Assembly: GCA_030652215.1 (NCBI GenBank)
Contig: JAUSBC010000047.1
Span: 1-64,000 of the forward strand
Source of the DNA: Sideroxyarcus sp.
Lineage (GTDB): Bacteria; Pseudomonadota; Gammaproteobacteria; Burkholderiales; Gallionellaceae
Length of the DNA: 64,000 bases
Reading direction: 5' to 3'
In this document: piece by piece, positions 11,176 to 45,246 of the stretch
Layout: every line of letters begins with the position of its first letter
Position numbering within the stretch: the stretch's first letter is position 1
Notes under the pieces: generated by a model
The model's database searches: none
What the model saw: the letters and a program-made list of their open reading frames with translations, nothing else
Told to the model about the DNA's origin: nothing
Program-made: the position numbers and the translations under genes

Positions 11176-11316
11176 GGGCACCTCTAAAAATCCAAATTTC
11201 GTCGCAATACTGCGTTGCTCACAAAAAATTACTCCTTACATATCACATATATGCTGCGTCGGAATTTTTTGCTCGCGCCTTGTCTTGCTTAGAACTTTGA
11301 ATTTTTAGAGGCGCCC
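11176..11316 (-). mobile_element. Short inverted-repeat element, copy A (141 bp)
   Basis: The termini GGGCACCTCTAAAAATCCAA (11176-11195) and the inverted TTGAATTTTTAGAGGCGCCC ending at 11316 pair almost completely. Internal blocks TTTCGTCGCAATACTGCG, CACAAAAAATTACTCC and TTTTTTGCTCGCGCCTTG are shared with the copies at 36707-36995 and 44488-44722. This copy lacks the roughly 110-base central block present in the other two. The flanks are ATTCA and TTTCA, so TTCA may be a target duplication if the element is one base longer. No coding capacity, so it is MITE-like. Confidence 0.88.
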
Positions 11317-11406
11317 TTTCAGCTTATCAGTTCGCACTTGCGCCGTCAGGGTCGAGCAATAACGCGGGATACTGTAGAATGCGCGCCTTGTTGGACGGCA
11401 CACATC

Positions 11407-14400
11407 ATGACCGCACGCTTACGCGAAATCCCTTACAACTACACCTCCTTCTCCGACCGCGAGATCGTTCTGCGCATCTTGGGCGGCGAGGCGTGGGACA
11501 TCATCAACACCCTGCGCGAAGAGCGCCGCACCGGCCGCTCGGCCCGCATGCTGTACGAAGTGCTGGGCGACATCTGGGTGCTCATGCGCAACCCGTATCT
11601 GGAAGACGACCTGCTTTCAAACGGCAAACGACGCGAGGCACTGATCGGTGCACTGCGCCACCGACTGAATGCGATCGAGGCGCGGCGCGTGGCTGCCGAA
11701 GGTACCTCCGGCAACGGCGAAAATCGCAGCCAGCAAGTGAAGCGCCTGCTTGATCTCGCCCACGCGGCAGTCGATAAGTTCGCGGCCGAATTCGAACACA
11801 CCTTGCAACTGCGCAAGCGCACCCTGCGCACCCTGAGCCGCCTCACGCGCAAGGACAATATCCAGTTCGACGGACTGGCACGCGTTTCGCACGTCACCGA
11901 TGCCACCGACTGGCGCGTCGAGTATCCCTTCGTAATCCTGCATCCCGACACGGAAGAGGAAGTCGCACCGCTGGTGCGCGCCTGCATCGAACTCGGTTTG
12001 ACGCTGATCCCGCGCGGCGGCGGCACCGGCTACACCGGCGGCGCCATTCCGCTCACCAAATATTCCGCGGTCATCAACACCGAAAAGCTGGATGCGATTT
12101 CGCCGATTGAACTCCTGACGCTGCCCGGACTGAGCGCGCCCTACGCCACTATCCAGTGCGGCGCGGGCGTGGTGACGCGGCGCGTGATGGAAGCGGCCGA
12201 AGCGCAGAAACTGGTGTTCGCGGTCGACCCCACCTCGGCGGATGCCTCGTGCATAGGCGGCAACGTAGCCATGAACGCGGGCGGCAAGAAGGCCGTGCTG
12301 TGGGGCACCGCGCTGGACAACCTGGCTTCGTGGAAGATGGTCACGCCGGACGGCCTGTGGATGTTCATCGAACGTCTGGACCACAACCTCGGCAAAATCC
12401 ACGACGCGCCGACCGCGCGCTTCCGCATCTCGCGTTTCGAGGCGGACGGCAAAACCGCAATCGGCGAGCCCGAGATCTTGACCATCCCGGGCAGCACTTT
12501 CCGCAAAGCCGGACTGGGCAAGGACGTCACCGACAAATTCCTGTCCGGTTTGCCCGGCATCCAGAAGGAAGGCTGCGACGGCATCATCACCTCGGCGCGC
12601 TTCATCCTGCACCGCGAACACAAATTCACACGCACCGTATGCCTGGAATTCTTCGGCCAGGTGCACGAGGCGGTGCCCGCCATCGTGGAAATCACCTCGA
12701 TGTTCCACAATCGCACAGCCTCCTCCGCGCCCGTCTTCCTGGCCGGACTGGAACACCTGGACGAGCGTTACCTGAAGGCGGTGGGTTACGCCACCAAATC
12801 CAAGCGCGGCACCCGTCCCAAGATGGTGCTCATCGCCGACGTGGTGAGCGACGACGAGAACGCAGCCGGCGCGACCTCTTCCGAGATCGTGCGTCTGGCC
12901 AACCTGCGCCACGGCGAGGGCTTCATCGCCGTCTCGGCCGAGGCGCGCAAGAAATTCTGGCTGGACCGCGCGCGCACGGCCGCTATTGCCAAACACACCA
13001 ACGCTTTCAAGGTTAACGAGGACGTGGTGATCCCCCTGCCGCGCATGGGCGACTATTGCGACGGCATTGAGCGCATCAACATCGAGTTGTCGCTGGGCAA
13101 CAAGATCAAGCTGCTGGACGCGCTGGACGAATTCTTCACCGGAGAACTGCCGCTGCGCTATCAGGACGATGCGCAACTGGGCGACGATGAATTGCTGGGC
13201 AACCGCACCCAGACTGCGCAGCAAGTGCTTGCCGAAGTGCGCGCGCGCTGGACCTGGCTGCTGGAACATCTGGATGCGCCGCTGACCACCTGCGTGTTCG
13301 CGCCTGCCGACGCCAAAGATGCGCTCACCGTGTTCGATGCCGTGCAGCGTCGCACTCTGCGCGCCTCCTGGAAACAGGAAATTCGCGAACCCCTGCGCCA
13401 GATTTTCAGCGGCAGCACTTACCTGCCCATTCTCGACCAGTGCACATCCATCCACCAGCGCGTGCCGAAAAGCCGCGTATTCGTGGCGTTGCACATGCAC
13501 GCGGGCGACGGCAACGTGCACACCAACATCCCGGTGAACTCCGACGACTATGTCATGCTGCAGCAGGCCTACGGTGCGGTGGACCGCTTCATGCAACTGG
13601 CGAAAGACCTGGGCGGCGTGATCTCGGGCGAGCACGGCATCGGCATCACCAAATTCGACTACCTCGAAGAAGCGGAGATCGCCCCGTTCACGGCTTACAA
13701 ACAGAAGGTCGATCCCGACGGTCACTTCAACAAGGGCAAGTTACTCAAGGGCAGCAACCTCGAACACGCCTACACGCCCAGCTTCAATTTGATGGAGCTG
13801 GAGAGCCTCATCCTCGAACAAAGCGCGCTTGGCGATATCTCCGACTCGATCAAGGACTGCCTGCGTTGCGGCAAGTGCAAGCCGGTGTGCAACACGCATG
13901 TGCCGCGCGCCAACCTGCTGTATTCGCCGCGCAACAAGATCCTCGCCACTTCGCTGCTGATCGAAGCTTTCCTGTACGAAGAACAAACAAGGCGCGGCGT
14001 GTCCATTCAGCACTTCGCCGAATTCAACGACGTAGCCGATCACTGCACCGTGTGCCACAAATGCGAGAAGCCCTGCCCGGTGGACATCGACTTCGGCGAC
14101 GTGTCGGTGGCGATGCGCAATTTCCTGCGCAAGCAGGGCCAGAAGCGATTCAGCCCGGTTACCGCGCTGTCCATGGCATACCTGAACACCGGCGATCCTT
14201 TCACCATCAAGCTGATGCGCAAGGTGATGATCGAGTGGTCGTACAAGGCACAGCGCCTGGCCTACCGCGTGGCAAAACATCTGGGGCTGTTCCGCCAGCA
14301 GGTGGCGCATCCGCCCGCCAGCGTGGGCAAGCCGACCCTGCAGGCCAAGGTGATCCACTTCATCAACAAGCCGATGCCGGGCGGATTGCCGAAGAAGACT

Positions 14401-15264
14401 TCGCGCGCCCTGCTCGACCTGGAAGACAACACCATCGTGCCGGTGATCCGCAATGCGCGCAAAGTGACCGAGGATTCCGAGGCGGTGTTTTATTTCCCCG
14501 GCTGCGGTTCGGAGCGTCTGTTCGGCCAGGTCGGCCTGGCAACGCAGGCGATGCTGTACGACATGGGCACCATCACCGTGTTGCCGCCCGGCTATTTGTG
14601 CTGCGGCTATCCGCAAACCTCGGCCGGCTTCGAGGACAAGGGCAGCCAGATCACGACCGACAACCGCGTGCTGTTCCATCGCGTGGCCAACACGCTGAAC
14701 TACCTCGACATCAAGACCGTGATCGTGTCCTGCGGCACCTGCATGGACCAGTTGATGAAGTACCAGTTCGAGAAGATATTCCCCGGTTGCCGCCTGCTCG
14801 ACATTCACGAGTACCTGCTTGAGAAGGGCGTAAAGCTGGCGACGCCCACCGGCAAGCGCTACATGTACCACGACCCCTGCCACTCGCCAATGAAGACCCA
14901 TGCGCCGCTCAAGGTAGTGAATGAACTGATGGCGACACCGGTTGCGCTGACAGACCGTTGCTGCGGCGAAGCCGGCACCTTCGGCCTGAACGTGCCGCAC
15001 ATTGCCACCCAGGTGCGTTTCCGCAAGGAAGAGGAAATCCGCAAGGGCGCGAGCGCGTTGCGCGCCGACGGCTATAGCGGCGAGGTCAAGATCCTCACCT
15101 CCTGCCCCGCCTGCCAGCAGGGCTTGAGCCGCTACACCGACGACGCGGGCACTACCACCGATTACATCGTGGTGGAAATGGCGCAGCAGCTGCTGGGCGG
15201 CACCTGGCTGGAAGACTATGTTACGCAAGCCAACAACGGCGGTATTGAACGCGTTCTACTATAA
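11407..15264 (+). CDS. FAD-linked oxidase / Fe-S / CCG-domain oxidoreductase (DUF3683 type)
   Basis: 1285-residue multidomain redox protein. The start is the ATG at 11407 ([15 protein letters not shown]). In order: an N-terminal DUF3683-type region (to about residue 150); an FAD-binding PCMH domain with [14 protein letters not shown]; an FAD-oxidase C domain containing [14 protein letters not shown] near residue 696 and [13 protein letters not shown]; a two-cluster ferredoxin unit with [11 protein letters not shown] at about 817 and [12 protein letters not shown]; and two CCG domains (GCGSERLFG near 1031, [28 protein letters not shown]). It is a fusion of a D-lactate/glycolate/D-2-hydroxyglutarate-type dehydrogenase with a GlpC/HdrD-like electron-transfer module. 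It probably oxidises a 2-hydroxy acid and passes electrons to quinone. The substrate is not deducible. The next gene starts 8 bases after the stop. Confidence 0.88.
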
Positions 15265-15272
15265 GGAAAGTC

Positions 15273-16895
15273 ATGCTATCCCTGGAACCGATCAATGCGC
15301 ACGCAAAGCCCGTTTTCAGGGATGCGAGCACTTGTGCCCAATGGTTAAGCCAGTTGCAGTTGACCAACCTCAATCTCGCGCACAGCACGCTGCGCGCGCA
15401 GCTGGACGAATTCAACCGCTTTCCCCTGCGCGCCAAAGAACGCCTGAAGACGCTGGAAGCGCTGCGCGAACCCGTCGCCACGGTGCAGGCTGATTACGCC
15501 AAGAAACTCTACGGCAAGAAATTGCCGCTCGCCGACGAAGAGTTTACCGTGCTCATCACGCTTTCCAATTTGTGGCTGAGCATGCTCAACGGTTATCTGC
15601 GCTGCCAGCAGGCGCAGGATACCGGCGACTCGTCCGTTTCGTCCGACGCGGCGCTGCTGGCGCATCGCTGCATGCTGTACAGCGGTTTGCAGATCGGCGA
15701 ATTCCTGCGCGCGGGGTGCGAGCCGGACGGAAAATCCTGGCAACGCCTGCACACGATTTACGCGCGCGTCGAGGAACAGGGATTGCAGCGGCAGGCCGTC
15801 ACCGACAAGCTCAGCCTCTCCTCGCGCTCCGTGTCCTGCCTCACGGCCTATACCAAAGTGTTGCTGCTGCACCGCGCCCGCCTGCACGGATTCAGGCGCA
15901 ACCAGTGGCAGACCCTGGACCTCTGGCTGGATCGGTGGGGCGATGCCTATTCCATGGAACCGCAATGCAGCATGAGTCGGGAAGATGCACCGCCGCTGGC
16001 CGTCGATCTGAACGGTATGCGCGGACTGGTCGACATTTACCGCGCCACTTCCGCGCCCGGCATGCGCTTCCTGGCCATGGTGCCGCTGTCCAAGCTCATC
16101 CGCGTGAAGACCATACTGCTGCAACAGGGGCAGTCGCCGCGCCAGTTGGAACTCGGCGAGGAAATGAACAGCAAGGACTGTCTGGATCTGCTCAACAAGC
16201 TGCACGGATGCTGGTGTGAGCAGCGCCCGGAATCGCTGGCGGACGAAATGCGCGAGGCGCCGCTCGTTCATCTTTACTGCGGCCTGGAAAGCATCTACGC
16301 AATCATTGCGCGCAAACCCTTCAAAGCGCCGACCAACACCGGCATCTCCGACAAGGAAGTGCAGCGCCAGATCGAAACCTTCGGCCGCGTGCTGGACCAG
16401 ACCGACCGCCACAATCTGAAAGAGTTGGGAACCTTGGCGGAAGAATGGCTGGTGGAAGACGACGGATTGCTGCACGCACGTTTGCTGCGCAAATCCAGCC
16501 AGGGCCAACGCTTCGGCCTGAACCAGATCGTGAGCATCCATACACCGGGAACGCCAAACCACAAGCTGGGCGTGGTGACGCTGGTCAACGTCACCCGCAA
16601 CGGGCATCTCTACATCGCCGTGCGCTACCTGCCGGGCAATCCGCAAGCGGTCATCGCGCGCGGCACCTCTTTCGGCAGCCTGGCTTCCGGGGCGGCAGCG
16701 GCATTGGTGCTGCCTGAAATAGCCAACCTGCGCATTCCGGCCAGCGTGATTCTGCCGCGCGACTGGTTTCAGACCGGACGCAACCTCGAACTCGTGCTCG
16801 TACTGAACGGCAACAAGTCGCAGAAAGTGGCGCTGGGGATCAGTGTGGAAAAAGGCAGCGACTTCGAACGCGCCAGCCTCACGTTCGGCAGTTAA
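15273..16895 (+). CDS. Conserved hypothetical protein, possible PilZ-like C-terminus
   Basis: 540-residue soluble protein with no signal peptide, starting at the ATG at 15273 behind AAGGAAAG. I do not recognise the family with certainty. The N-terminal 350 residues are helical, and the C-terminal 130 residues (from about HARLLRKSSQGQRFGLNQIV) look like a small beta-barrel with repeated VxxVxxxxxGxLxIAVRYLPG strands. This is reminiscent of PilZ-like or chaperone-associated regulatory domains, but no clear RxxxR...DxSxxG c-di-GMP motif is visible. It is coupled to the large oxidoreductase (8-base gap) and overlaps the 3' end of phoR by 4 bases on the opposite strand. Confidence 0.55.
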   Translation: MLSLEPINAHAKPVFRDASTCAQWLSQLQLTNLNLAHSTLRAQLDEFNRFPLRAKERLKTLEALREPVATVQADYAKKLYGKKLPLADEEFTVLITLSNLWLSMLNGYLRCQQAQDTGDSSVSSDAALLAHRCMLYSGLQIGEFLRAGCEPDGKSWQRLHTIYARVEEQGLQRQAVTDKLSLSSRSVSCLTAYTKVLLLHRARLHGFRRNQWQTLDLWLDRWGDAYSMEPQCSMSREDAPPLAVDLNGMRGLVDIYRATSAPGMRFLAMVPLSKLIRVKTILLQQGQSPRQLELGEEMNSKDCLDLLNKLHGCWCEQRPESLADEMREAPLVHLYCGLESIYAIIARKPFKAPTNTGISDKEVQRQIETFGRVLDQTDRHNLKELGTLAEEWLVEDDGLLHARLLRKSSQGQRFGLNQIVSIHTPGTPNHKLGVVTLVNVTRNGHLYIAVRYLPGNPQAVIARGTSFGSLASGAAAALVLPEIANLRIPASVILPRDWFQTGRNLELVLVLNGNKSQKVALGISVEKGSDFERASLTFGS

Positions 16896-18211
16896 GCACC
16901 TGCGCCGACTCCCGGCGGTATGCGCCGCTTTTCCGGGAAAACAACACTGAAAGTGCTGCCCTTGCCCTCTGCGCTGGAGATGTTGAGCTGCGCCTGATGA
17001 CGCATGGCAATGTGTTTGACGATGGCGAGCCCCAGGCCGGTGCCGCCGGTCTCGCGCGAACGACTGCGATCCACGCGGTAGAAACGCTCGGTGAGGCGCG
17101 AAATATGCTGCGGCGCGATGCCGATGCCGCTGTCTTTCACGCTGAACGCCATATGCCCGTCGGGCTGTTCTGACCAGCGCAACACAACCTCGCCTCCCGG
17201 CGGCGTATAGCGAACGGCATTGGTGACCAGGTTGCCGAAGGCGCTGTGCAGTTCGTTGCCGCATCCGCCAATCCGCACATCGCTCTCAAGCTCAAGTTTG
17301 AGCACATGCTGCCCGTTGCTGAGCGAACGTCCTTCTTCCAGCAGCGTATGCATCAGTTCCTGCACATTCACCTGCTCCTCCTGCAAAACGTTCTGTTCGT
17401 TTTCCAGCCGCGACAGCGTGAGCAGGTCGTCCACCAGTCTTTCCATGCGTGAAGTCTGGTCGCCCATCAGCTTCAGGGCGCGGCGCGCCATGTCGTTTTC
17501 CAGGTTCGGCATGTCCTGCATGGTTTCGACAAAACCGTTGACCACCGTCAGCGGGGTGCGCAGTTCGTGCGAGACGTTGGCGACGAAGTCACGACGCATG
17601 GTTTCGATGCGCTCCAGATGGGTGATGTCGCGGCTGATGAGCAGGCGCTTGCTGCTGCCGTAGGCGATGAGCTTGATGGAAAGGACGAGGTCTTCATGCC
17701 GCGTGTCGCGCAACACCAGCGGCTCGGTGAAAACGTTCCGGTCCAGGTACTGCACAAATTCCGGTTGGCGCGCCAGGTAGGTGATCTGTTGTCCCATATC
17801 GCGTTTCGCATCCAGCCCGAAATGGCGCTCGGCCAGCGGGTTGCACCATTCAATGCGGTCGGCATCGTCCAGGATCACCACCCCCTCGGGCAAAGCCGAA
17901 GTGGCCTGCTGCATTTGCTGCAGGGCGGCGGCGTACTGCTCGTGATCCTTGCGGCGCTGCTTGACCAGCTTGTCCAGCACCGCAAACACGTCCTCCCACA
18001 TGCCGGTACCCACCGGCACTTCCTGCGTGTCCGCATTTGATAGCCAGGAGTCAAAAGCGGCCAGGTTGCGCAGATGGTGGATGATCCTCAGCCACATGGC
18101 AACGCCGAAAAACAACGCGGCGGGCAATGCATCCGCTATCGCCCAGATCAGCAGGGAGATTACAAATATCGTGAATGAATAAACCAGTGCGCGTTGCCAG
18201 AAATCGCTCAC
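16892..18211 (-). CDS. phoR: Phosphate regulon sensor histidine kinase PhoR
   Basis: 439-residue inner-membrane kinase. The start is GTG at 18211 preceded by AGGTGA. Two N-terminal membrane segments lie in residues 8-50, with almost no periplasmic loop, as in PhoR. A linker follows, then a PAS domain (about 100-195). The HisKA domain has phosphoacceptor His215 in NVSHELRTPLT. The HATPase domain has NLVTNAVRYTPPGG, DSGIGIAPQHI and GTGLGLAIVKHI. It phosphorylates PhoB when phosphate is scarce. It follows phoB by 67 bases and is probably in the same transcript. Confidence 0.95.
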   Translation of the reverse strand: MSDFWQRALVYSFTIFVISLLIWAIADALPAALFFGVAMWLRIIHHLRNLAAFDSWLSNADTQEVPVGTGMWEDVFAVLDKLVKQRRKDHEQYAAALQQMQQATSALPEGVVILDDADRIEWCNPLAERHFGLDAKRDMGQQITYLARQPEFVQYLDRNVFTEPLVLRDTRHEDLVLSIKLIAYGSSKRLLISRDITHLERIETMRRDFVANVSHELRTPLTVVNGFVETMQDMPNLENDMARRALKLMGDQTSRMERLVDDLLTLSRLENEQNVLQEEQVNVQELMHTLLEEGRSLSNGQHVLKLELESDVRIGGCGNELHSAFGNLVTNAVRYTPPGGEVVLRWSEQPDGHMAFSVKDSGIGIAPQHISRLTERFYRVDRSRSRETGGTGLGLAIVKHIAMRHQAQLNISSAEGKGSTFSVVFPEKRRIPPGVGAGA

Positions 18212-18278
18212 AGCGTCACCTCAAAAATGGACTGGCGGCATTATACGGGGTGATACGGACTATCGTTTCGCCGAAAAC

Positions 18279-18968
18279 CTATTCCCGGGAAAAACGGTAG
18301 CCGCTGCCGCGCACGGTTTGCACCAGCGCGTCCAGACCGGATGGCTCCAGCGCCTGGCGCAGGCGGCGGATATGCACGTCCACCGTGCGTTCTTCCACGA
18401 ATACGTGGTCGCCCCACACCTGGTCGAGCAGTTGCGCGCGGCTATACACGCGCTCGACGTGGGTCATAAAGAAGTGCAGCAGGCGGAATTCGGTCGGCCC
18501 CAGGTCGACGATCTGGCCGTTGGCGCTGACGCGGTGCGTGGTCGGCGACAGTTCCACCCCTTCCACGCGCACGGTCTCGTCGCTCATCTGCGGCGCGCGG
18601 CGGCGCAGCACGGCGCGGATGCGCGCCATGAGTTCGCGCGGCGAAAAAGGCTTGGTGATGTAGTCGTCGGCGCCGGATTCCAGGCCGAGTATCTTGTCGC
18701 GCTCGTCGGTGCGGGCGGTGAGCATGATGATGGGAATGTCGCGGGTGCGCGAATCGGCGCGCAAGCGCCGCGCCATTTCGACGCCCGGCGTGCCGGGCAG
18801 CATCCAGTCGAGCAGGATCAGGTCGGGCAGAGCGCGGTTGACCTCCGCCAGCGCGCTGGGCACATCGTAGGACTGGATGGCGCGAAAGCCGCATTGCGCC
18901 ACGTTGAAAGCCAGCAATTCCTGAATCGCCGGTTCGTCTTCCACTATCAGGATATTCGCTGTCGTCAT
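18279..18968 (-). CDS. phoB: Phosphate regulon response regulator PhoB
   Basis: 229-residue OmpR/PhoB-type regulator. The receiver domain has the acidic pair EDE near residues 10-12, phosphoacceptor Asp54 (LILLDWMLPG) and a conserved lysine in ITKPFSPREL. The winged-helix C-terminus has GPTEFRLLHFFMTHVERVYSR, QVWGDHVFVEERTVDVHIRRLR and the GSGYRF ending typical of PhoB. It activates phosphate-starvation genes. A three-unit Pho box at 19002-19034, 34 bases upstream of the start, points to positive autoregulation. Confidence 0.97.
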   Translation of the reverse strand: MTTANILIVEDEPAIQELLAFNVAQCGFRAIQSYDVPSALAEVNRALPDLILLDWMLPGTPGVEMARRLRADSRTRDIPIIMLTARTDERDKILGLESGADDYITKPFSPRELMARIRAVLRRRAPQMSDETVRVEGVELSPTTHRVSANGQIVDLGPTEFRLLHFFMTHVERVYSRAQLLDQVWGDHVFVEERTVDVHIRRLRQALEPSGLDALVQTVRGSGYRFSRE

Positions 18969-19001
18969 TCTGTTCTCCCTATATCGTTCATTTCGCTTGC
19001 G

Positions 19002-19034
19002 ATGATATGAAAGAATTATGACAGTAACATGACA
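19002..19034 (-). promoter_or_regulatory. Pho box upstream of phoB
   Basis: Read on the minus strand, three consecutive 11-base units begin TGTCAT, TGTCAT and TTTCAT (19034-19024, 19023-19013, 19012-19002). This matches the known PhoB recognition pattern of 7-base TGTCAxx direct repeats with 4-base spacers. It lies 34 bases before the phoB start codon. Confidence 0.85.
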
Positions 19035-19194
19035 TTCAACCTAGAAACCGTAGTTGGACGAAGTGCAGTGTGCGTTCATCGTGGCGCAGGGCAAGGCGCG
19101 AGAGCGTGGCTGTTGCCGCTTTCGCGGCTTTACAGCCACGGCCTACCCCTTGCGGGTGCGACGAGGAATGGTCGTTCCATTCCGAGGAGGAGCC

Positions 19195-19282
19195 AACCCT
19201 CACCCTAACCCTCTCCCATAGGGAGAGGGAACGATCGCTCTCTCCCCCTCTGGGGGAGAGTTGGAGAGAGGGCTGCCGACAT
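19195..19282. repeat. GGGAGAGGG hairpin repeat in the phoB/symporter gap
   Basis: Two adjacent hairpins: CCCTCTCCC (19209-19217) with GGGAGAGGG (19221-19229), and CTCTCCCCCTCTGGGGGAGAG around 19240-19260. The outer flanks (CCCTCACCCTAACC and GAGAGAGGGCTG) also pair loosely. The rest of the gene-free stretch 19035-19410 shows no convincing gene; its short frames have no family character. Confidence 0.7.
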
Positions 19283-19410
19283 GTGTCGCGAGGGACGTGC
19301 AATGCGCTTCGTAGCGACTCACCTGCCGGGTGAGCGTGAATAGATAACATGATTCTTTTCTATTCACTTGCTTGCGTGCTCAATGGCGCGGTCAACTGCG
19401 GTTTTTAGGT

Positions 19411-20856
19411 TCAGACCGGATGTTGCCGAGGCGAATGCACCGCGCCGTATCTCCCGATCTTGTTCGGCAACCATGAACCCAGCAGCATACCCAGCAAACT
19501 GGCCAGCAAACCGGCCAGTTGCGGCGGCCATATTTCGCTCGGTTCGAACGCTTCCATCAGGATCCATACCCCCAGCCCCAGCACGATGGAGAGCAGCGCG
19601 CCCTGCGTGCTGGCGCGTTTCCAGTACAAGCCGAACGCGAGCGGCACGAATGCGCCGACCAGCGTGACCTTGTACGCGTTTTCCACCATTTCGAAAATAG
19701 TCGCCTCCGAGTGCAGCGCGAACCAGTACACCATGCAGCCGAAGGTCACCACGATAATGCGCATGGTGCTCAGCATCTGCCGGTCGCTCATATCCTTGAG
19801 CGCGAAGTGTTTCAGGATATTTTCGGTAAACATCACCGAGGGCGCCAGCAGGGTGGCGGCAGCCGTGCTCATGATGGCGGACAGCAGCGCGCCGAAAAAG
19901 AACACCTGCGCCACCAGCGGCGTGTGCTGCAGGATCAACTGGGGCAGCACCATCTGCGAATCGCTTTCGATCAGGTCGCCGAACACTTTGGGGTCGATCA
20001 GGGTCGCCGCGTAGGCCAGAAACATGGGCACGAAGGCAAAGGCGAAATACAGCACGCCGCCCGATACCGATCCGCGCACCGCTGTCTTCTCGTCCTTGGC
20101 CGAAGTCATGCGCTGAAACACGTCCTGCTGCGGAATCGAGCCCAGCATCATGGTGATGCCCGCGCCGATGAAAGGAATCCATGCCTCATAGCCGCCCTGC
20201 GGAAAGAACTGCAGTTTTCCCGCAGCACGCGCATGGTTCACCACGTTGGCCGCGCCGCCCGCGTCGTCGCTCACCAGCACCGCGATTAGCAGCAAGGCCA
20301 CCATGATCACCGTCATCTGCACAAAATCCAGCAGCGCCACCGACCACATGCCGCCGAACATGGTGTAGCCCAGCACGATGGCCGTACCGATGAACATGCC
20401 GGTGGGCTGGTCGATGGCGCCGCCCGTGACCATATCGAACACCAGTCCCAGCGCCGTGACCTGCGCCGACACCCAGCCGAGATAGGAAATCATGATGCAG
20501 ATCGTCATAATCAGCTCGACCTCGCGGCTGTAGCGCGCGCGGTAATAGTCGCCGATGGTGAGCAGATTCATGCGATATAACAGCGGTGCGAAGAACAGGC
20601 CGGCGATGATCAGGCACATGCTCGCGCCGAATGGATCGGCCACCACACCGCTCAACCCCTCGGTCACAAACGTGGCCGAAATGCCCAGCACCGTCTCCGC
20701 GCCGAACCAGGTGGCAAACACGGTGGCGGTGACGATGGGCAGCGGCAGGTTGCGCCCGGCCACCACAAAGTCGCGGGAATTGTGCACACGCCGCGAAGCA
20801 TAAACCCCGACACCGACGGAAAACAGCAGATAGAGCCCAACGAACCAGATCAGCAT
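19411..20856 (-). CDS. Sodium:solute symporter family protein
   Basis: 481-residue polytopic inner-membrane transporter of the SSS/SLC5 family with about 13 hydrophobic helices, beginning MLIWFVGLYLLFSVGVGVYASRR. Family features are GRNLPLPIVTATVFATWFGAETVLG after the first helix, the GWVSAQVTALG stretch, GGMWSVALLDFVQM and the SIPQQDVFQRMTSAKDEKTA loop that is part of the SSS signature. It couples Na+ entry to uptake of an organic solute. The substrate is unresolved, and the YfaV/PutP-like opening does not settle it. Confidence 0.88.
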   Translation of the reverse strand: MLIWFVGLYLLFSVGVGVYASRRVHNSRDFVVAGRNLPLPIVTATVFATWFGAETVLGISATFVTEGLSGVVADPFGASMCLIIAGLFFAPLLYRMNLLTIGDYYRARYSREVELIMTICIMISYLGWVSAQVTALGLVFDMVTGGAIDQPTGMFIGTAIVLGYTMFGGMWSVALLDFVQMTVIMVALLLIAVLVSDDAGGAANVVNHARAAGKLQFFPQGGYEAWIPFIGAGITMMLGSIPQQDVFQRMTSAKDEKTAVRGSVSGGVLYFAFAFVPMFLAYAATLIDPKVFGDLIESDSQMVLPQLILQHTPLVAQVFFFGALLSAIMSTAAATLLAPSVMFTENILKHFALKDMSDRQMLSTMRIIVVTFGCMVYWFALHSEATIFEMVENAYKVTLVGAFVPLAFGLYWKRASTQGALLSIVLGLGVWILMEAFEPSEIWPPQLAGLLASLLGMLLGSWLPNKIGRYGAVHSPRQHPV

Positions 20857-20956
20857 GGAACCACCCTGCGATTGAAGAATGGCGGGTATTTTAGCAGCGT
20901 TCCCAAAAACGAAAAGACCGCCGGAGCACGGCAGTCCTTTCGTTCAAACGGCCCGA

Positions 20957-36042: not shown

Positions 36043-36107
36043 GGCATGAATGATTCGGGTTTCAATCGCTTGTTTTACTGTGGAATTGCGTCAACGTTTT
36101 TTGTACT

Positions 36108-36704
36108 TCACTCTTCATCCGGCTCCACATAATCTCTAGGCAACAAGTGGGCGATACCCTTGTGGCAGTCGATACAGGTTTTGCCTTTGGCTTTGGCCTT
36201 CATGTGAATATCGAACACCAACTGCTGCTCCTTTGAGCCGCGCATGGCTTCGAAGCTGTGGCAGTTCCGGCATTCGCGCGAATCCGTGGCCTTCATGCGC
36301 TCCCATTCTATGGTTGCCAGTTTCATGCGCCGCGCTTCGAATTTTTCCGGGGTGTCGATGACACCGGTGATCTTGCCCCACACTTCCTGGCTTGCCTGAA
36401 TCTTGCGCCACAGTTTGTGCGACCAATCCTTGGGCACATGACAATCGGAGCAGATCGCGCGCACGCCGCTGGGGTTCGAGTAGTGAATAGTCTTCTTGTA
36501 TTCCTGGTAAACGTTTTCGCGCATTTCGTGGCAACTGATGCAGAATTCCAGCTTGTTGGTCGCCTCCATGCCCGTGTTGAATCCGCCCCAGAACAGGATG
36601 CCCGAATAGAAACTCAGCAGCGCGATGGTCAGAACGGAATATTTCGCAGTCGGCTTGCGCAGAAATATCCACGTTTGATCAAGGATGTTTGGCTTGTTAT
36701 TCAT
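36108..36704 (-). CDS. NapC/NirT-family tetraheme c-type cytochrome
   Basis: 198-residue inner-membrane-anchored periplasmic cytochrome. One membrane helix near residues 24-40 is followed by four CxxCH heme sites: CISCH (55-59), CSDCH (85-89), CRNCH (145-149) and CIDCH (177-181). This matches NapC/NrfH/CymA-type quinol dehydrogenases, which pass electrons to periplasmic reductases. No partner reductase is adjacent. It sits upstream of the Mo cofactor operon, as would suit a molybdoenzyme partner elsewhere. Its ribosome binding site (AGAGG, 7 bases before the ATG) is the end of the inverted-repeat element at 36707-36995. Confidence 0.92.
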   Translation of the reverse strand: MNNKPNILDQTWIFLRKPTAKYSVLTIALLSFYSGILFWGGFNTGMEATNKLEFCISCHEMRENVYQEYKKTIHYSNPSGVRAICSDCHVPKDWSHKLWRKIQASQEVWGKITGVIDTPEKFEARRMKLATIEWERMKATDSRECRNCHSFEAMRGSKEQQLVFDIHMKAKAKGKTCIDCHKGIAHLLPRDYVEPDEE

Positions 36705-36706
36705 AT

Positions 36707-36995
36707 GGGCACCTCTAGAAATCCAAATTTCGTCGCAATACTGCGTTGCTCACAAAAAATTACTCCTTACATATGCGCCATCGACACGTTACTGCGAAGC
36801 AGCCGTTCGCGGGAGATGGCGCTGGCGGTCATTCCCGCACCAGACGGCTCCGCCGCACCGCGTCATGACCGCTATATGCTGCGTCGCAATTTTTTGCTCG
36901 CGCCTTGTCTTGCTTATAACCAGCCACTTGCCAGCTTGCTGGCTTAGTGGATTGGCTAGTAGTTTCATCAGAACTTTGAATTTTTAGAGGCGCCC
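36707..36995 (-). mobile_element. Short inverted-repeat element, copy B (289 bp)
   Basis: Ends GGGCACCTCT (36707) and AGAGGCGCCC (to 36995), with the same internal blocks as copies A and C. It has the central block (GCGCCATCGACACG to CATGACCGC) shared with copy C. It also holds an extra segment of about 55 bases (about 36916-36970) not in the others, itself partly palindromic. ATAT lies directly outside both ends, but the flanks are palindromic, so a duplication cannot be told from longer ends. The following 36996-37204 region to the end of tatB has no gene I can support. Confidence 0.88.
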
Positions 36996-37204
36996 ATATG
37001 TCGTTACGCTGGGAGTTGTCGAAATATCTAAACCGTTTCAACAAGCCGGATGCATGCCAATTCAATTGGCGCCTGCCTGTCGAGGAGTATGCGCGGCGAT
37101 TTCCTCGATGCCGTCATGCGTAAAACAGAATGGCATTTTCGCTGTTGACACTTGGTGTTTGTGCACAGCCGTCTTGCGCAGGTTCCAGGCGCGGGCAGAT
37201 CGGC

Positions 37205-37555
37205 CTACTTGGTAGGCGCGAGCGGGTCCGTCGGCGGCAGGGATTTGACCGCATCCTGCACGGGCTGCTCGATTTCCTTCTCCAGCTTCAGCATTTCGTG
37301 GTTGATGTCGTTGCCGGCCTGCTGCACCGAACGCTCCAGCGCTTCCGTTTCAGCTTTGACCTTGCGCTCCAGTTCGCGCAATTCGTCCAGTTCCATGCTG
37401 CTCGCCACATCCGATTTGATGCGATTGACGTAGCGCTGCATGCCGCCCCACCATTTGCCCATGGTGCGCGCCACTGCGGGCAGGCGGTCGGGGCCGATGA
37501 CCACCAGCGCCACGACCATGATGACCATAATTTCCGCAAAGTTTACGTCGAACAT
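37205..37555 (-). CDS. tatB: Sec-independent translocase subunit TatB
   Basis: 116-residue membrane protein starting at the ATG at 37555 (MFDVNFAEIMVIMVVALVVIGPDRLP) behind GGTGGAAAG. One N-terminal helix, the conserved Glu8 and the GPDRLP hinge, then an amphipathic helix and a charged coiled tail are typical. With TatC it forms the receptor for twin-arginine signal peptides. It follows tatA by 38 bases. No tatC follows. Confidence 0.94.
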   Translation of the reverse strand: MFDVNFAEIMVIMVVALVVIGPDRLPAVARTMGKWWGGMQRYVNRIKSDVASSMELDELRELERKVKAETEALERSVQQAGNDINHEMLKLEKEIEQPVQDAVKSLPPTDPLAPTK

Positions 37556-37593
37556 CTTTCCACCCCGCTTAGTCGGTTCTGCCGACAAAATAC

Positions 37594-37812
37594 TCAGACG
37601 TTGCTGTGTGCCTTGCTTTTTGCCTGTGCGTCGGCACTCTGCTCGCCTTCGCGCAATTGCTGAGGCGCGTCGCCATCCGATTTCATGCCGTCCTTGAAAC
37701 CTTTGACCGCCCCGCCCAGATCGCTGCCGATGTTACGCAGTTTCTTGGTGCCGAACACCAGTACCACGACCAGCAATACGATCAACCAATGCCAAATACT
37801 GAATGAACCCAT
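37594..37812 (-). CDS. tatA: Sec-independent translocase subunit TatA
   Basis: 72-residue pore-forming subunit of the twin-arginine system: [29 protein letters not shown], then an amphipathic helix ([17 protein letters not shown]) and a short polar tail. The FGTKKLRN hinge is diagnostic. The Tat system would be needed for folded cofactor proteins such as Mo enzymes. Confidence 0.96.
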
Positions 37813-37893
37813 TTCTCTCTCCTTTGTTTATTCCGCGAATGTGATCTTCGCGTAACGATCATGAGCAATTTTCAAGCCTGTAATCGTGGAGCA

Positions 37894-37938
37894 GGTGAAG
37901 GGAGAAGGGAAAACACCCTTCACCCATCTCCCTTCACC
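37894..37938. repeat. Small hairpin after apbC
   Basis: GGTGAAGGGAGA (37894-37905) pairs perfectly with TCTCCCTTCACC (37927-37938). It ends four bases before the apbC stop codon, so it may end the apbC transcript. No T tract follows. Confidence 0.6.
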
Positions 37939-37941
37939 GCA

Positions 37942-39036
37942 TCAAGTGTTCTGCACCACGATCTTGGGGAAGGCCGCGCTGTGGTCCTGTGCCATGTCGG
38001 CCACTTTGACGGCAATGCGGCGCGCGATCTGCTTGTAGACCTTGGCGATATTTCCGTCCGGGTCGGCCACCACGGTCGGCTTGCCGGAATCGGTCTGTTC
38101 GCGGATGCTGATATCGAGCGGAAGCCCGCCGAGGAATTCGGTGCTGTAATCGGCACACATCTTTTCACCGCCGCCGGCGCCGAAAATATGTTCCTCGTGG
38201 CCGCACTTGCTGCAAATATGCGTGCTCATGTTTTCCACGATGCCGACGATCTTGATGCCGACCTTATCGAACATATTGAGTCCTTTGCGCGCGTCCATCA
38301 GCGCGATGTCCTGCGGCGTGGTGACGATGACCGCGCCCGTGACCGGCACTTTTTGTGCCAGCGTGAGCTGGATGTCGCCGGTACCGGGCGGCAGGTCCAC
38401 CACCAGATAGTCGAGGTTGTCCCACTTGGTCTGGTGCAGCAACTGTTCCAGCGCCTGCGTCACCATCGGACCGCGCCACACCATGGGCGTGTCTTCGCCG
38501 TCAATCAGGAAACCGATGGACATGGCCTGCAGGCCGTGGCTTTCCAGCGGATTCATGGTTTTGCCGTCGGCTGATTGCGGCTGACCGCTGATGCCGAGCA
38601 TGGTGGGTTGCGACGGGCCGTAGATGTCGGCATCCAGCATGCCGACGCGCGCGCCTTCGGCGGCCAGCGCGAGGGCCAGGTTCACTGCGGTCGTGCTCTT
38701 GCCCACGCCGCCTTTGCCGCTGGCCACGGCGATGATGTTCTTTACGCCGTCCACCAGTTTCACGCCGCGCTGCACGGCATGCGGCACGACCTTGCTGCTG
38801 ACGTTAGCGGTGATTTTGCCGGCGCCGGGCAATGCGGTTTTGAGATGGCCTTCGACCATCGCCTTGATCTCGTCCCACACGCTCTTGGCCGGATAGCCGA
38901 GCGAGATGTCCAGCGTCAGGTTGGCGCCGTCGATCTTGACGTTCTTTACGGACTTGCCACTCACGAAATCTTTTTTGGTGTTGGGGTCGATCAGACTTTT
39001 CAACGCGTTTTGCACGTCGGCTTCAGTGAAACTCAT
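37942..39036 (-). CDS. apbC: Iron-sulfur cluster carrier protein ApbC/Mrp
   Basis: 364-residue P-loop ATPase. The N-terminal MIP18-like domain (about residues 1-85) is followed by the deviant Walker A AVASGKGGVGKSTTAVN near residue 103, DADIYGPSQPTML, and the CxxC motif CSKCGHEEHIFGAGGG, whose cysteines hold the transferable cluster in a dimer. It loads 4Fe-4S clusters onto apoproteins such as those encoded around it (MoaA, radical SAM). Confidence 0.96.
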   Translation of the reverse strand: MSFTEADVQNALKSLIDPNTKKDFVSGKSVKNVKIDGANLTLDISLGYPAKSVWDEIKAMVEGHLKTALPGAGKITANVSSKVVPHAVQRGVKLVDGVKNIIAVASGKGGVGKSTTAVNLALALAAEGARVGMLDADIYGPSQPTMLGISGQPQSADGKTMNPLESHGLQAMSIGFLIDGEDTPMVWRGPMVTQALEQLLHQTKWDNLDYLVVDLPPGTGDIQLTLAQKVPVTGAVIVTTPQDIALMDARKGLNMFDKVGIKIVGIVENMSTHICSKCGHEEHIFGAGGGEKMCADYSTEFLGGLPLDISIREQTDSGKPTVVADPDGNIAKVYKQIARRIAVKVADMAQDHSAAFPKIVVQNT

Positions 39037-39160
39037 GCTCTGCTCCTGGCGAAATTGTTGTGAAAGCGTGATTCTATACCAGAGTGCGCATTCATAACCC
39101 CGCTTAGCTTGCGGTCTATCCCGGCTTTACACTCCCACCGTGCTGCCTTACATTACAACC

Positions 39161-39622
39161 ATGAAAAGACTGTTGTTATTCTGCATTGCGCTGTTGCTCG
39201 CCTCCTGCGCCACGGAGCCTCCCCGCCAATACGTAGTTTCCTCCGACCGCATGAACGATCTGGTGATGTATGCGCTGAGCCTGGCTGATACGCCCTACCG
39301 CTACGGCGGCAAGTCGGCAGGCAGCGGCTTCGATTGCAGCGGCTTCGTCGGGCATGTGTACCTGCATACGCTGGATATCAAATTACCGCGCACCACGCGC
39401 GAAATCAGCCGCGTCGGCAAACCGATCAGTCAGGGCGAACTCAACCCGGGCGACCTGGTGTTTTACAACACGCAAAATTCGTCCTTTTCCCATGTCGGGG
39501 TGTACATCGGCGAGGGGAAGTTCGTGCATTCGCCCAAAAGCGGCGATAGTGTGCGCACGGAGCAGATGCAGATGCGTTACTGGAAGACGCGCTATGACGG
39601 GGCACGGCGTATCCGGCGTTAG
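39161..39622 (+). CDS. NlpC/P60-family (C40) peptidase lipoprotein
   Basis: 153-residue envelope protein starting at the ATG at 39161 (MKRLLLFCIALLLASC); the lipobox is LASC with Cys16. The C40 catalytic set is intact: Cys59 in GSGFDCSGFV, His111 in FSHVGVY and His123 in KFVHSP. Such enzymes cut peptide stems of peptidoglycan. It is divergent from apbC and convergent with the next GGDEF-EAL gene. Confidence 0.92.
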   Translation: MKRLLLFCIALLLASCATEPPRQYVVSSDRMNDLVMYALSLADTPYRYGGKSAGSGFDCSGFVGHVYLHTLDIKLPRTTREISRVGKPISQGELNPGDLVFYNTQNSSFSHVGVYIGEGKFVHSPKSGDSVRTEQMQMRYWKTRYDGARRIRR

Positions 39623-39643
39623 CAGGTTGTTGAAAAACCGCTG

Positions 39644-42400
39644 CTAGGGATTCAGAAGAGAAAGCTGCGCTCTCCATTTCCCGGTTTTGCCGAGGTCTGT
39701 TTCCTGGCCGAACGACAGAAGCAGGGACTTGAATTTCGCCCTGGGCATGGGCTTGCTGTACAAATAACCCTGCGCGATCTGGCAACCCCGCTCGCGCAGG
39801 TACGCAGCCTGTTCCGGGGTGTCCACGCCTTCCGCCACCACGATTTGCCCCAGGCTGTGCGCGATGGAAATAATGGCGCGCACCAGTTCCGCGCGGTGCG
39901 TATCCTCCGCAATGCTGCTCACGAACAGCCGGTCTATCTTCAGCGTGTTGATCGGGTAGCGCGCCAGGTAACTCAGCGAGGAATAGCCGGTGCCGAAATC
40001 GTCGATCGCGATCGCGATGCCCATTTCCTGAAACTGATTCAGTATGTCCAGCACTTCGCCGTGCTCGTCCAGCAGCATGCTTTCGGTGATTTCCAGTTCT
40101 ATCCATTCCGGCAGGCAATCCGTTTCTTCCAGAATCCGGGTCACGGTATGCACCAGGTCGCCGGTCTGGAACTGGCGCGCAGACAGATTGATGGCCACCT
40201 TGTGCAAAGGCATCTGCGGCGCATTCCATTCATGGGCGGTGTGGCAGGCTTCGCGCAACACCCACTCGCCGATTTCCATGATGAGTCCGCTGTCCTCGGC
40301 AATGGCGATAAATTGGTCGGGCGGCACCATGCCGCGCTGCGGATGATTCCAGCGCAACAGCGCTTCGGAGCCGACCAGCGCGCCGTCCGCCAGCCATACC
40401 TTGGGCTGGAAATACAGCTCCAGTTCGTTGCGCTCGACCGCGCGCCGCAATTCGGATTCCAGCGCGAAGCGTTCGCTGGCCAGCACGGTCAGTTCCTTGG
40501 AGTAGAAACGGAAATTGTTGCGGCCGGAACGCTTGGCGAGATACATCGCGGTGTCGGCCTGCTTCACCAGATCGTCGGCGTCGCTGCTGTCGTCGGGATA
40601 CACGGCGATGCCGATACTCGCGGAAACGAACACCTCCTTGCCTTCCAGCGCGAACGGCTTCCTGAACGCTTCCAGCACTTTGCCGGCTATCTTGCCCAGA
40701 TCGGTACCAGACGGCATCTCCGGCAGCAGGATCGCGAACTCGTCGCCGCCCAGCCGCGCCACCATGTCGTCGGCGCGCACGCAATCCGTCAGCCGCATCG
40801 CGGCCACGCGCAGCAACTCATCGCCCGCCGGATGCCCCATGGTGTCGTTGACCGCCTTGAAGCGGTCCAGATCGAGCAGCATCACCACCGCCTGCTGGCC
40901 GTGCCAGGAAGCTTCCGCCAGCATTCTCTTGAGTCGCTCGTTGAACGAGGAGCGGTTCGGCAGCGCGGTGAGCGTGTCGTAGAAAGCCATCTGGTGGATC
41001 TTCTGGCGGTAGGAGTGGATGTCGGAAATATCGCGCCCCACCGCCAGCACCGTGGACACCTCGCCGTTGCGGTCGCATTCCGCGATCAGGCGCACGTGAC
41101 TGCAGATCTCATGCCCGTCGCGGCCCGGCCATTTCAGTTCAAACTCGGCGCTGGCGCCGGTCGCGAACACTTCCGCGATCTTCGCTTCATAAGCGACGGC
41201 GTTATCGCCTCCCGGATTCTCCGAGGGCCGCTTGCCCAGCAGCGCCTCCATCCCGCCGTCGACCAGCGATCCGAAGGCGGGATTGACGAATACGCGGCGG
41301 CCGTCGCGGCTGTAGCGCGAAATGTTGTCGGGCGAATTCTCGATCAGGGTACGCGATTCGTATTCGCGCGCGACGAGCTCTTCTTCCATGCGCTTGCGCT
41401 CGGTGATGTCGTGCATGAATCCGTGCCAGCTTGTGCTGCCGTCCGCCCCGCTTTGCGGCAGGGAACGCAACTCGATCCAGCGTTCGCCCTTGTGCGCATG
41501 GTTGATGCGGAATTCGAGCCGGAACGGGGCAAGCGACGCCAGCGATTCCTTGCGCGCCTGCTGAAAGCGCACGACATCCTCGGGGTGCGCGATATTCAGC
41601 AGCGGAGCAATGCTGTCGGCCAGTTCCTCGCCCCGGATTCCCAGCAATTCGCCGATGCCGATGCTGGTGAACGGCATGGAGGATTTGCCGTCGGGATGCA
41701 GCGTCGCGGTATAAAAGAAGCCCGGCGCGCTCTCGAAGAAACGGAACATGCGCCGGTCGCTGTCTTTCACGCTGGCGGACAATTCGCTGTTTTGCCTGGA
41801 AGTCGAAAGGGCGGTGAATACCATACGGTTCATCTGGCGCAATAGCTGCAGCAAGAATCCCGCATAAGCCAGTACGATCAGGCCCATGAAGAAATTCACG
41901 CGCTCGCCGGTCAGCATGAGCGGAATCGCGAACGGCAGCATGGCGGCAAGCATGAATGCGATGGCAGCCGGGGGCACAGGCGCCATTTCCACACAGGCAA
42001 AAGCACAGACGCCGGAAACGACAATGAGCGACAGCATGAAAGGCAGGTCGAACGGCACCGAAGAAAACAGCAGTCCGGTAAAACCCCAGCACAAACCTCC
42101 TGCGGCGGCGCCAATCACCAGCCCCGTCCACCACCGGCTGGCGTCAATACCGACCCTGTCAGCGATGCGCATATACTTGCGCACATAAGAATTGCGCACC
42201 AGCATGACGACCCACAAGGAAACCACCCACGCCAGCAGAACCATGTGCGGCACCAGCGACCACAGCGCGAGCACGACGATCACCGAAACCAGCAGGCTGG
42301 ATTTCAGGGCAAACGGAAACCTGCCGTAGGCCATGTCAAGCTGCCTTGGCTCCAGCAGCGCAATCCTGCTTTTTTCCGTTTCCAACGATTCTCCCGCCAC
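39644..42400 (-). CDS. Membrane-bound PAS-GGDEF-EAL c-di-GMP protein
   Basis: 918-residue inner-membrane signalling protein. About five to six membrane helices lie in residues 30-190, followed by a first PAS/PAC (about 215-335), a second PAS (about 345-460), GGDEF (about 470-630, intact LGGDEF) and EAL (about 645-900, intact EALLRW, NLSARQF, LEITES, IDDFGTGYSS, KIDRLF, EGVDT). All catalytic motifs look complete, so cyclase and phosphodiesterase activity are both possible. The start is GTG at 42400 with a weak site; an in-frame ATG 66 bases further (MAYGRFPFALK) is an alternative. It may feed the c-di-GMP read by the riboswitch at 46413. Confidence 0.92.
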   Translation of the reverse strand: MAGESLETEKSRIALLEPRQLDMAYGRFPFALKSSLLVSVIVVLALWSLVPHMVLLAWVVSLWVVMLVRNSYVRKYMRIADRVGIDASRWWTGLVIGAAAGGLCWGFTGLLFSSVPFDLPFMLSLIVVSGVCAFACVEMAPVPPAAIAFMLAAMLPFAIPLMLTGERVNFFMGLIVLAYAGFLLQLLRQMNRMVFTALSTSRQNSELSASVKDSDRRMFRFFESAPGFFYTATLHPDGKSSMPFTSIGIGELLGIRGEELADSIAPLLNIAHPEDVVRFQQARKESLASLAPFRLEFRINHAHKGERWIELRSLPQSGADGSTSWHGFMHDITERKRMEEELVAREYESRTLIENSPDNISRYSRDGRRVFVNPAFGSLVDGGMEALLGKRPSENPGGDNAVAYEAKIAEVFATGASAEFELKWPGRDGHEICSHVRLIAECDRNGEVSTVLAVGRDISDIHSYRQKIHQMAFYDTLTALPNRSSFNERLKRMLAEASWHGQQAVVMLLDLDRFKAVNDTMGHPAGDELLRVAAMRLTDCVRADDMVARLGGDEFAILLPEMPSGTDLGKIAGKVLEAFRKPFALEGKEVFVSASIGIAVYPDDSSDADDLVKQADTAMYLAKRSGRNNFRFYSKELTVLASERFALESELRRAVERNELELYFQPKVWLADGALVGSEALLRWNHPQRGMVPPDQFIAIAEDSGLIMEIGEWVLREACHTAHEWNAPQMPLHKVAINLSARQFQTGDLVHTVTRILEETDCLPEWIELEITESMLLDEHGEVLDILNQFQEMGIAIAIDDFGTGYSSLSYLARYPINTLKIDRLFVSSIAEDTHRAELVRAIISIAHSLGQIVVAEGVDTPEQAAYLRERGCQIAQGYLYSKPMPRAKFKSLLLSFGQETDLGKTGKWRAQLSLLNP

Positions 42401-42477
42401 TGCCTGTTCCCGATTATTTTCCGCCGTGCCGCTCGCGGCCCAGCCTGCTCTTCAATTCCGGTATACCCGTACTTCGA

Positions 42478-44482
<2,005 letters not shown>

Positions 44483-44487
44483 GTTAT

Positions 44488-44722
44488 GGGCGCCTCTAGA
44501 AATTCAAAGTTCTAAGCAAGACAAGGCGCGAGCAAAAAATTGCGACGCAGCATATGCGGTCATGACACGGTGCGGCGGAGCCGTCTGGTGCGGGAATGAC
44601 CGCCAGCGCCATCTCCCGCAAACGGCTGCTTTGCAGTAACGTGTCGATGGCGCTATATGTAAGGAGTAATTTTTTGTGAGCAACGCAGTATTGCGACGAA
44701 ATTTGGATTTTTAGAGGTGCCC
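44488..44722 (+). mobile_element. Short inverted-repeat element, copy C (235 bp)
   Basis: Ends GGGCGCCTCT (44488) and AGAGGTGCCC (to 44722). Content is the reverse orientation of copies A and B, including the central block of copy B at high identity. A direct duplication TTAT lies just outside both ends (44484-44487 and 44723-44726), and TTAT is not palindromic, so it is a good target-site duplication. The right-hand duplication contains the first two bases of the downstream ATG. Confidence 0.92.
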
Positions 44723-44724
44723 TT

Positions 44725-45246
44725 ATGAAAGAAAAGCCGGAGCAGGACGCTGACTTGTTCCGGCAGGCGGTGGCAGGTGCGACGCCGCTCGCCCCTGCCG
44801 ACCGCATCGTTCCCTCCCCCAAGTTGCGCAAGACAGTCTTGCGCAACAGTCTGCCCCCAGCCGAAGCAAGCGATAACCTCTCCGACCACGGTGCGGGCGA
44901 TGTCGCCATCACCGAGTTCCTGCGCCCCGGCTTGAATCGCCTGACGCTGCGCAAACTGCGCCACGGCGAGTGGCGCATCCAGGACGAACTGGATCTGCAC
45001 GGCCTCAACAGCGACGACGCCAGAAAACTACTGGCGGTGTTTCTGCACGACGCCACGCAGCGCGGACTGCGCTGCGTCAACGTGATACACGGCAAAGGAT
45101 GGCGCAGCGAGGGCCGCGACGGCATTATCAAAGTCCACACACGCCACTGGCTGGCGCAACACCCGCTGGTGCTGGCTTTCTGCGAGGCGCCGCCGCAGTC
45201 GGGCGGCGGCGGCGCGGTCTGGGTGCTGCTGAAAAATCTCTCCTGA
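44725..45246 (+). CDS. Smr-domain protein
   Basis: 173-residue protein with a C-terminal Smr domain (about residues 88-173): DELDLHGLNSDDARKLL, VIHGKGWRSEG and AFCEAPPQSGGGGAVWVLL. Such stand-alone proteins are nucleases or nucleic-acid binders related to the MutS2 tail. The N-terminal 85 residues are polar and variable. The ATG at 44725 follows the end of element copy C; AGAGG at 44714-44718 (inside the element) is 7 bases away and appears to be the ribosome binding site. Before insertion the gene would have started two bases after the trxB stop. Confidence 0.88.
   Translation: MKEKPEQDADLFRQAVAGATPLAPADRIVPSPKLRKTVLRNSLPPAEASDNLSDHGAGDVAITEFLRPGLNRLTLRKLRHGEWRIQDELDLHGLNSDDARKLLAVFLHDATQRGLRCVNVIHGKGWRSEGRDGIIKVHTRHWLAQHPLVLAFCEAPPQSGGGGAVWVLLKNLS

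Follow-up and report, generated by a model that had tools for sequence, protein, structure and literature searches.

The ends of a short transposable element of Gallionellaceae probably double as Shine-Dalgarno (SD) sequences for the genes beside which it lands. We analyzed a window of 64,000 nucleotides, the whole stretch of DNA under study (positions 1 to 64,000 of contig JAUSBC010000047.1 from Sideroxyarcus sp., assembly GCA_030652215.1), in which three copies of the element lie just before genes of the ThpR/LigT, NapC and Smr types. These copies are members of a 141-bp family of IS5-type miniature inverted-repeat transposable elements (MITEs) of Gallionellaceae (Sideroxydans, Gallionella). 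Our explanation, held with moderate confidence from the comparison of sequences, is that the ends of the MITE, end A above all, would act as SD sequences and that selection would tolerate its insertion on the start side of genes, the insertion itself being neither aimed nor oriented. What can be read from the letters is the anatomy of the element, its duplications, the lack of an orientation bias, a deficit of copies at 10-19 bp from start codons and, at end A, a gain in SD strength and the retention of the motif GAGG. We infer that ribosomes would use the donated SD in the cell.

In the mechanism proposed, the MITE would insert with a 4-bp duplication at AT-rich sites. If a copy of either orientation came to lie 0-9 bp before a start codon, its terminal inverted repeat (TIR) would replace the displaced native SD and the gene would stay usable. 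At 10-19 bp neither SD would be in place and the insertion would tend to be lost. Target preference together with purifying selection would then be enough to bring copies up against starts, with end A (GAGGTG) as the better donor and end B roughly replacing the SD that was there before. This would offer a simple reason for a transposon end to resemble an SD, namely that more insertion sites, those a few bases before starts, become harmless. If true, other families of insertion sequences (IS) or MITEs with GAGG-like ends should also show tolerated positions at 0-9 bp and under-occupied ones at 10-19 bp.

The MITE family

The copies have no transposase, carry TIRs and are short, with 141 bp in 93 of 189 distinct copies and 139-143 bp in 174. 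The 4-bp AT-rich target duplication matched at 4 of 4 positions in 80 of these 189 copies, at 3 in 67 and at 2 or fewer in 42, under a scoring that allowed boundary shifts of up to 2 and so favors matches. The survey started from 291 raw rows, of which 284 had flanks (half-copies and those cut by contig ends were dropped) and 189 were distinct once same-site repeats were removed. Dropping shared flanks left 167 flank-independent insertions, and 166 were used for distances to starts after one inside a gene was set aside. Gene calls (56 on the window) come from a codon-usage script, and the starts are as called, without curation.

Of 34 genomes of the same genus (that of the window included) 32 carried the element, as did 2 of 3 from elsewhere in the family and 1 of 24 from the rest of the order, making 35 of the 61 searched. 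When named genomes were scanned for exact matches, 25 stretches came up under the labels Sideroxydans, Sideroxyarcus, Gallionella, Gallionellaceae, Nitrosomonadales or Gammaproteobacteria. The genome of the window (G000) gave 30 matches at E values up to 10, halves and self-inverse matches included. Twelve copies there had gene context, the three in the window and nine others, with end A less than 10 bp from a start in five and end B in two. Of 79 candidates in the sole carrier from another family (G051), 40 were scored, giving 40 matches with 76-85% identity in stretches of 44.5% GC. Rfam models gave no match at gathering score at the copies, indicating that this is not a known Rfam RNA element. 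Copy 1 had no match in phage or plasmid collections, and one 22-base exact pattern had none in viral contigs. In four copies (L062, L181, L183, L214) one end is replaced by GCGGRTTGCCYGCT-type sequence, as though fused to another repeat.

Distance and orientation relative to start codons

Start codons were found 0-9 bp from the element in 45 of the 166 copies and 10-19 bp from it in 6. Insertion in either range displaces the native SD alike, and only at 0-9 bp is the GAGG of the TIR placed 5-14 bp from the start. Selection was separated from target choice by a within-junction null, in which each insertion was redrawn inside its own reconstructed junction with weights from the 4-bp duplication motif. 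When the genes were those called on the empty site (n=126), 34 copies were seen at 0-9 bp where 29.7 were expected, and 5 at 10-19 bp where 13.7 were expected (P=0.0012). The corresponding values were 28 against 23.3 and 3 against 10.1 (P=0.0024) for duplications of at least 3/4 (n=101), and 21 against 17.9 and 3 against 8.3 (P=0.015) for stronger gene scores (n=85). When genes were called beside the element (n=122), 4 copies were seen at 10-19 bp for 13.3 expected, and 0 of 5000 draws were as low. The share of 10-19 bp within 0-19 bp was also low (p=0.006-0.007), and a start excess at 0-4 bp had P=0.004 in the n=122 null and a borderline P=0.054 in the n=126 null. A further 23 copies, whose insertion point was within a gene predicted on the empty site, were not part of the latter; 16 of them lay close to the stop of that gene and 7 close to its start. 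Several distance bins and retention tests were run, and the P values are uncorrected. An unconditional null gave a larger start excess at 0-9 bp (45 versus 11-14). We do not rely on it because long intergenic regions weigh heavily in it, and prefer the within-junction null.

The sequence-only reading of the window had claimed that the same end of the element always faces a start codon. Among the 167 flank-independent insertions, starts lay near end A 26 times and near end B 22 times (p=0.67, counting starts from -15 to 10 bp), and in tandem gene pairs the start was at A in 56 and at B in 49 (p=0.56). Even in the window's own genome there are two copies (L091, L092) with end B 2 bp from the start. 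One bin leans to A, with 32 against 16 for starts within 30 bp and duplications of at least 3/4 (p=0.029 before any correction, for one bin out of many). At the surveyed shares of A and B, three window copies out of three would be alike with a probability of 0.26. The same-end pattern is thus a property of the three window copies only. The reading had also proposed scoring orientation and distance across copies, and there the closeness to starts is borne out, with the 45 copies at 0-9 bp, while the orientation is unbiased. Of the two causes that it offered, insertion targeted to start regions is unnecessary, given that the counts at 0-9 bp are near the expectation from 4-bp target preference. 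The other, that copies rescuing translation were kept, is supported by the tolerated 0-9 bp range beside the 10-19 bp deficit and by what is seen at end A below.

Stop codons are also found at the element. Among the 167 independent copies 43 of them end 0 or 1 bp from it, meaning that the duplication contains the stop. In three copies (L129, L177, L232) ATGA duplications restore both the stop and the start of overlapping genes.

Shine-Dalgarno strength at the ends

Both ends can read out GAGG, and end A often reads GAGGTG. The TIR consensus reads out TAGAGGYGCCC, which matches 4-6 bases of the 16S anti-SD at five bases from the edge. In the 48 cases next to a start, SD pairing had a median of -7.2 kcal/mol after insertion versus -3.3 at the joined empty site (p=4e-5), the median of 376 reference genes being -4.1. 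Twelve of the 48 empty sites gave no start codon in place and 3 starts were inside the element, and the comparison was rerun on 36 and on 30 clean cases, with copy 2 of the window excluded (its B boundary had been mis-set in the automatic survey owing to a second insert). The 30 cases gave -5.8 versus -3.2 (p=0.0005). The gain came entirely from end A, with -8.15 versus -2.25 in 18 clean cases and a stronger pairing in 17 of them.

The motif itself was kept more often beside starts. GAGG was found at 35 of 45 start-adjacent ends and at 154 of 289 other ends (p=0.002). At end A the figures were 22/25 beside starts and 76/142 elsewhere, and within divergence strata 20 of 23 start-adjacent A ends had it where 13.6 were expected (P=0.002).

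The predicted hairpin and a possible leader

The RNA read into the gene folds as one long predicted hairpin. The consensus that RNAalifold drew from the family alignment was weak, and the pairs of the consensus fold were counted instead. In an alignment of 159 copies the outer arms covary: pair 3/139 is GC in 74, CG in 35, TA in 13 and AT in 11, being paired in 85% versus 43% when shuffled, and pair 13/129 is paired in 94% versus 64%. This covariation may come from selection on the hairpin, from correction between the arms or from subfamilies. Pairs 3/139, 4/138, 12/130 and 13/129 change in compensation between the ends, which is unusual for ends that a transposase reads independently. Reading from B to A, the element has a TAAGGAG and, in 136 of 167 copies, a start-type codon, the commonest form running for 12 codons to a TAG that overlaps the GAGG.

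Weighing the explanations

Several results speak against SD donation as the explanation. With 4/4 duplications the counts were 17 for 14.5 expected at 0-9 bp, and the 10-19 bp deficit was 1 for 5.1 (P=0.016). Closeness to stop codons is above the n=126 null, with 35 for 26.7 at 0-4 bp and 17 for 8.4 at 5-9 bp, and SD donation leaves it unexplained. End B shows no gain in SD (6 stronger and 6 weaker in 12 clean cases, p=0.73) and no retention of GAGG (13/20 versus 78/147, p=0.35; P=0.31 within strata). Within copies, GAGG on the start side only and on the far side only stood at 8 versus 2 (p=0.11). Some start-adjacent ends (L170, L168, L321, L328, L253) are almost without an SD. Finally, the donated GAGGTG is paired in the predicted full hairpin, with an unpaired probability of about 0 in all three window leaders, so in the model either ribosomes would bind during transcription or something would open the stem.

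A rival explanation is chance in compact genomes. With an AT-rich 4-bp target and short gaps the GAGG would be incidental, and the displaced genes would be translated otherwise or hardly at all. It would fit the start counts at 0-9 bp, which are near the within-junction expectation, the behavior of end B and the crowding at stops, where 66 stop-facing ends lie at 0-9 bp among the 166 copies versus about 17 under the unconditional null. In G051, too, a start was within 10 bp at 1 of 30 loci, several of these loci having no called neighbor on one side. However, chance predicts neither too few copies at 10-19 bp nor stronger SD pairing at end A nor the GAGG retained at start-adjacent A ends, and we consider it unlikely. 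An oriented element, with end A either aimed at start codons or selected there, would agree with all three window copies, with the one bin leaning to A and with the GAGG kept at the start-side A. The even counts of A and B over the family and in tandem pairs, and the B-start copies of the same genome, refute its strong form and make the rest very improbable. Promoters are known at some IS ends and in Correia elements, which have promoter activity, and the sequence-only reading had suggested that the element could carry one. This was not upheld in the two window regions scanned, where 0 sigma-70-like sites were found (copy 2 and other family members were not among them). That the element brings a promoter to the adjoining genes has, in our judgment, hardly any likelihood.

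The hairpin problem would be solved by a more elaborate version of SD donation, which is speculation and to which we give a rather low probability. The MITE would be a portable cassette for translational coupling, in which a leader open reading frame (ORF) starts near the hairpin loop and the ribosome terminating at its TAG exposes the overlapping GAGGTG for the next gene. This would be the insurance of a selfish repeat against harm to the adjoining genes. An intact leader whose stop is near the edge occurs in 21/25 A-start copies versus 69/142 others (p=0.001; P=0.002 within divergence strata). If only copies that have GAGG at A are counted, the figures are 19/22 versus 46/76 (p=0.04), while the B control gave 11/20 versus 79/147 (p=1). 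On the other hand, start adjacency shows no significant link with the portion of the leader distant from the SD (22/25 versus 101/142, p=0.09), indicating that the tie is mostly due to the TAG/GAGG part. The peptide shows no purifying selection, with 18 synonymous, 52 nonsynonymous and 4 nonsense distinct events where 27, 86 and 4 are possible. In the predicted fold, holding the leader open does not alone free the GAGGTG, the one G051 copy read has an in-frame TGA in the leader, and end B is at starts about equally often without such an SD-preceded leader. Simple SD donation, with insertion tolerated at starts, is the explanation that we retain.

A candidate autonomous partner

Inverted pairs of the TIR pattern, spaced by about 1,335 bp, are also present in G051, and 8 of them were read. 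They bound an IS5-family element that resembles the MITE in the first 16 TIR bases (GGGCATCTCTAAAAAT), the same as in the MITE copies of that genome, and in its 4-bp duplications, which match in 5 of the 8 copies read (TTAT twice, TTTA, ATAA, TGAT). It differs in its length of 1,335 bp and in having a transposase. The transposase lies in two overlapping frames (one copy was translated); its two pieces score 159.9 and 99.5 bits with NF033581 (transpos_IS5_4, cut-off 140), and PF05598 and PF01609 match as well. G051 has nine copies of the first frame at 99-100% identity, besides a decayed one and two fragments. The two overlapping frames, with the first alike in nine copies (L352-L359 among the loci of G051), may reflect programmed frameshifting.

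A search of the 61 genomes with the first frame (E 1e-10) found it absent from the genome of the window, and in the genus of that genome it gave only distant matches (30-33%) or a 50% fragment with a stop. Looking for a partner by exact TIR matches in the same genome and five others of the genus led to 8 places, all at MITE copies. The 1,335-bp element, judged by its sequence, is the only plausible autonomous partner found, and it sits in a genome of another bacterial family.

The copies in the window and their genes

Three copies with inverted ends do exist where the sequence-only reading had placed them (Table 1), and a 24-base TIR pattern with at most 3 mismatches had 6 matches in the window versus 0 in 100 shuffles. 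In all three, end A, which reads out AAATTTGGATTTYTAGAGGTGCCC, faces the start codon of the next gene (ATG at 11167 minus for ThpR/LigT, 36704 minus for NapC and 44725 plus for Smr). The spacing that the reading gave from AGAGG to ATG, 13 in copy 1 and 7 in copies 2 and 3, was reproduced. The SD pairing at end A is -9.5 kcal/mol in both copies 1 and 3, versus -1.8 and -6.7 respectively at the joined empty sites. The duplications are TTAT/TTAT in copy 3, ATAT/ATAT in copy 2 and, provided that the right end is extended by one T, TTCA/TTCA in copy 1. In copies 2 and 3 the duplication holds part of the following ATG (TTAT then G), indicating that the start codon predates the element.

Table 1. Features of the three MITE copies and adjoining genes in the window (gene products named from Pfam)
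Feature	Position	Strand	Remarks
ThpR/LigT-type gene, PF02834 + PF13563	10613..11167	-	start 8 bp from end A
MITE copy 1, 141 bp, short form	11176..11316	-	minus strand reads B to A into ThpR
End A SD-like GAGGTG, copy 1	11179..11184	-	11 nt before ThpR ATG
NapC/NirT-type cytochrome gene, PF03264	36108..36704	-	start 2 bp from end A
MITE copy 2, long form, two internal inserts	36707..36995	-	minus strand reads B to A into NapC
End A SD-like GAGGTG, copy 2	36710..36715	-	5 nt before NapC ATG
Internal palindromic block, ~98 bp, copy 2	36775..36872		gap between A and B sequence matches
Second insert (~49 bp), B arm of copy 2	36921..36969		gap between matches 36873-36920 and 36970-36995
Pyridine nucleotide-disulphide oxidoreductase, PF07992	43526..44482	+	stop 5 bp from end B of copy 3
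Left target duplication TTAT, copy 3	44484..44487		right counterpart 44723-44726
MITE copy 3, long form	44488..44722	+	plus strand reads B to A into Smr
Internal palindromic block, ~99 bp, copy 3	44556..44654		gap between sequence matches
Possible 12-codon leader ORF GTG...TAG behind TAAGGAG, copy 3 (speculative)	44676..44714	+	stop overlaps donated SD
End A SD-like GAGGTG, copy 3	44714..44719	+	5 nt before Smr ATG
Smr-domain gene, PF01713	44725..45246	+	start 2 bp from end A

The extra internal block is present in copies 2 and 3 and the second insert in copy 2. The palindromic block was compared by eye, between these two copies only. By length, the long form occurs also at L091, L092, L301, L304, L306, L307 and L309. 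Elsewhere in the window there are a c-di-GMP-I riboswitch (46415-46505) and a cut-off cobalamin riboswitch (63923-64000).

Relatives of the three genes indicate what stood there before. In many Smr relatives that lack the element the start overlaps the upstream stop or trails it by a few bases, so the insertion at Smr split a tight stop-start junction. A MITE-like end (TATTAGAGATGCCC) lies about 30 bases before the start of one Smr relative (L397, in G016), perhaps from a separate insertion at the same gene. ThpR relatives with similar upstream DNA (L450, L452, L457) have CTGATAAGCTGA before the ATG and no GGAG, so that ThpR gained a strong SD. Of the listed NapC relatives, L419 and L420, which are the closest, are without a clear GGAG and several at 61-71% have GGAG about 8 bases upstream; judged from these sequences, the cost of the insertion at NapC is uncertain.

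Comparison with known repeats

Correia repeats of Neisseria are small, adjoin genes and alter the mRNA of their neighbors via RNase III; they are like the present MITE in being small repeats beside genes and differ in that SD donation is absent from the account in the consulted portion of a review (PMC10969869). The BOX repeats of pneumococcus are likewise short, lie beside genes and can carry ORFs, as the Gallionellaceae element may, but according to the part of the source used here those ORFs have no good SD candidates (PMC3049150). A literature search that covered few subscription-journal papers, many of its sources in part, gave no description of this MITE family or of SD donation by MITE ends. 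Also close are the ERIC repeats of enterobacteria, which have variants with internal inserts. The 127-bp repeat is described, in the portion of the source consulted, as an intergenic, MITE-like imperfect palindrome of about 127 bp, and in these traits our element is similar (PMC2759123). The difference lies in the sequence (the two were set apart without a sequence comparison) and in the hosts, the family analyzed here having a candidate IS5-type partner and TIRs that bear an SD.

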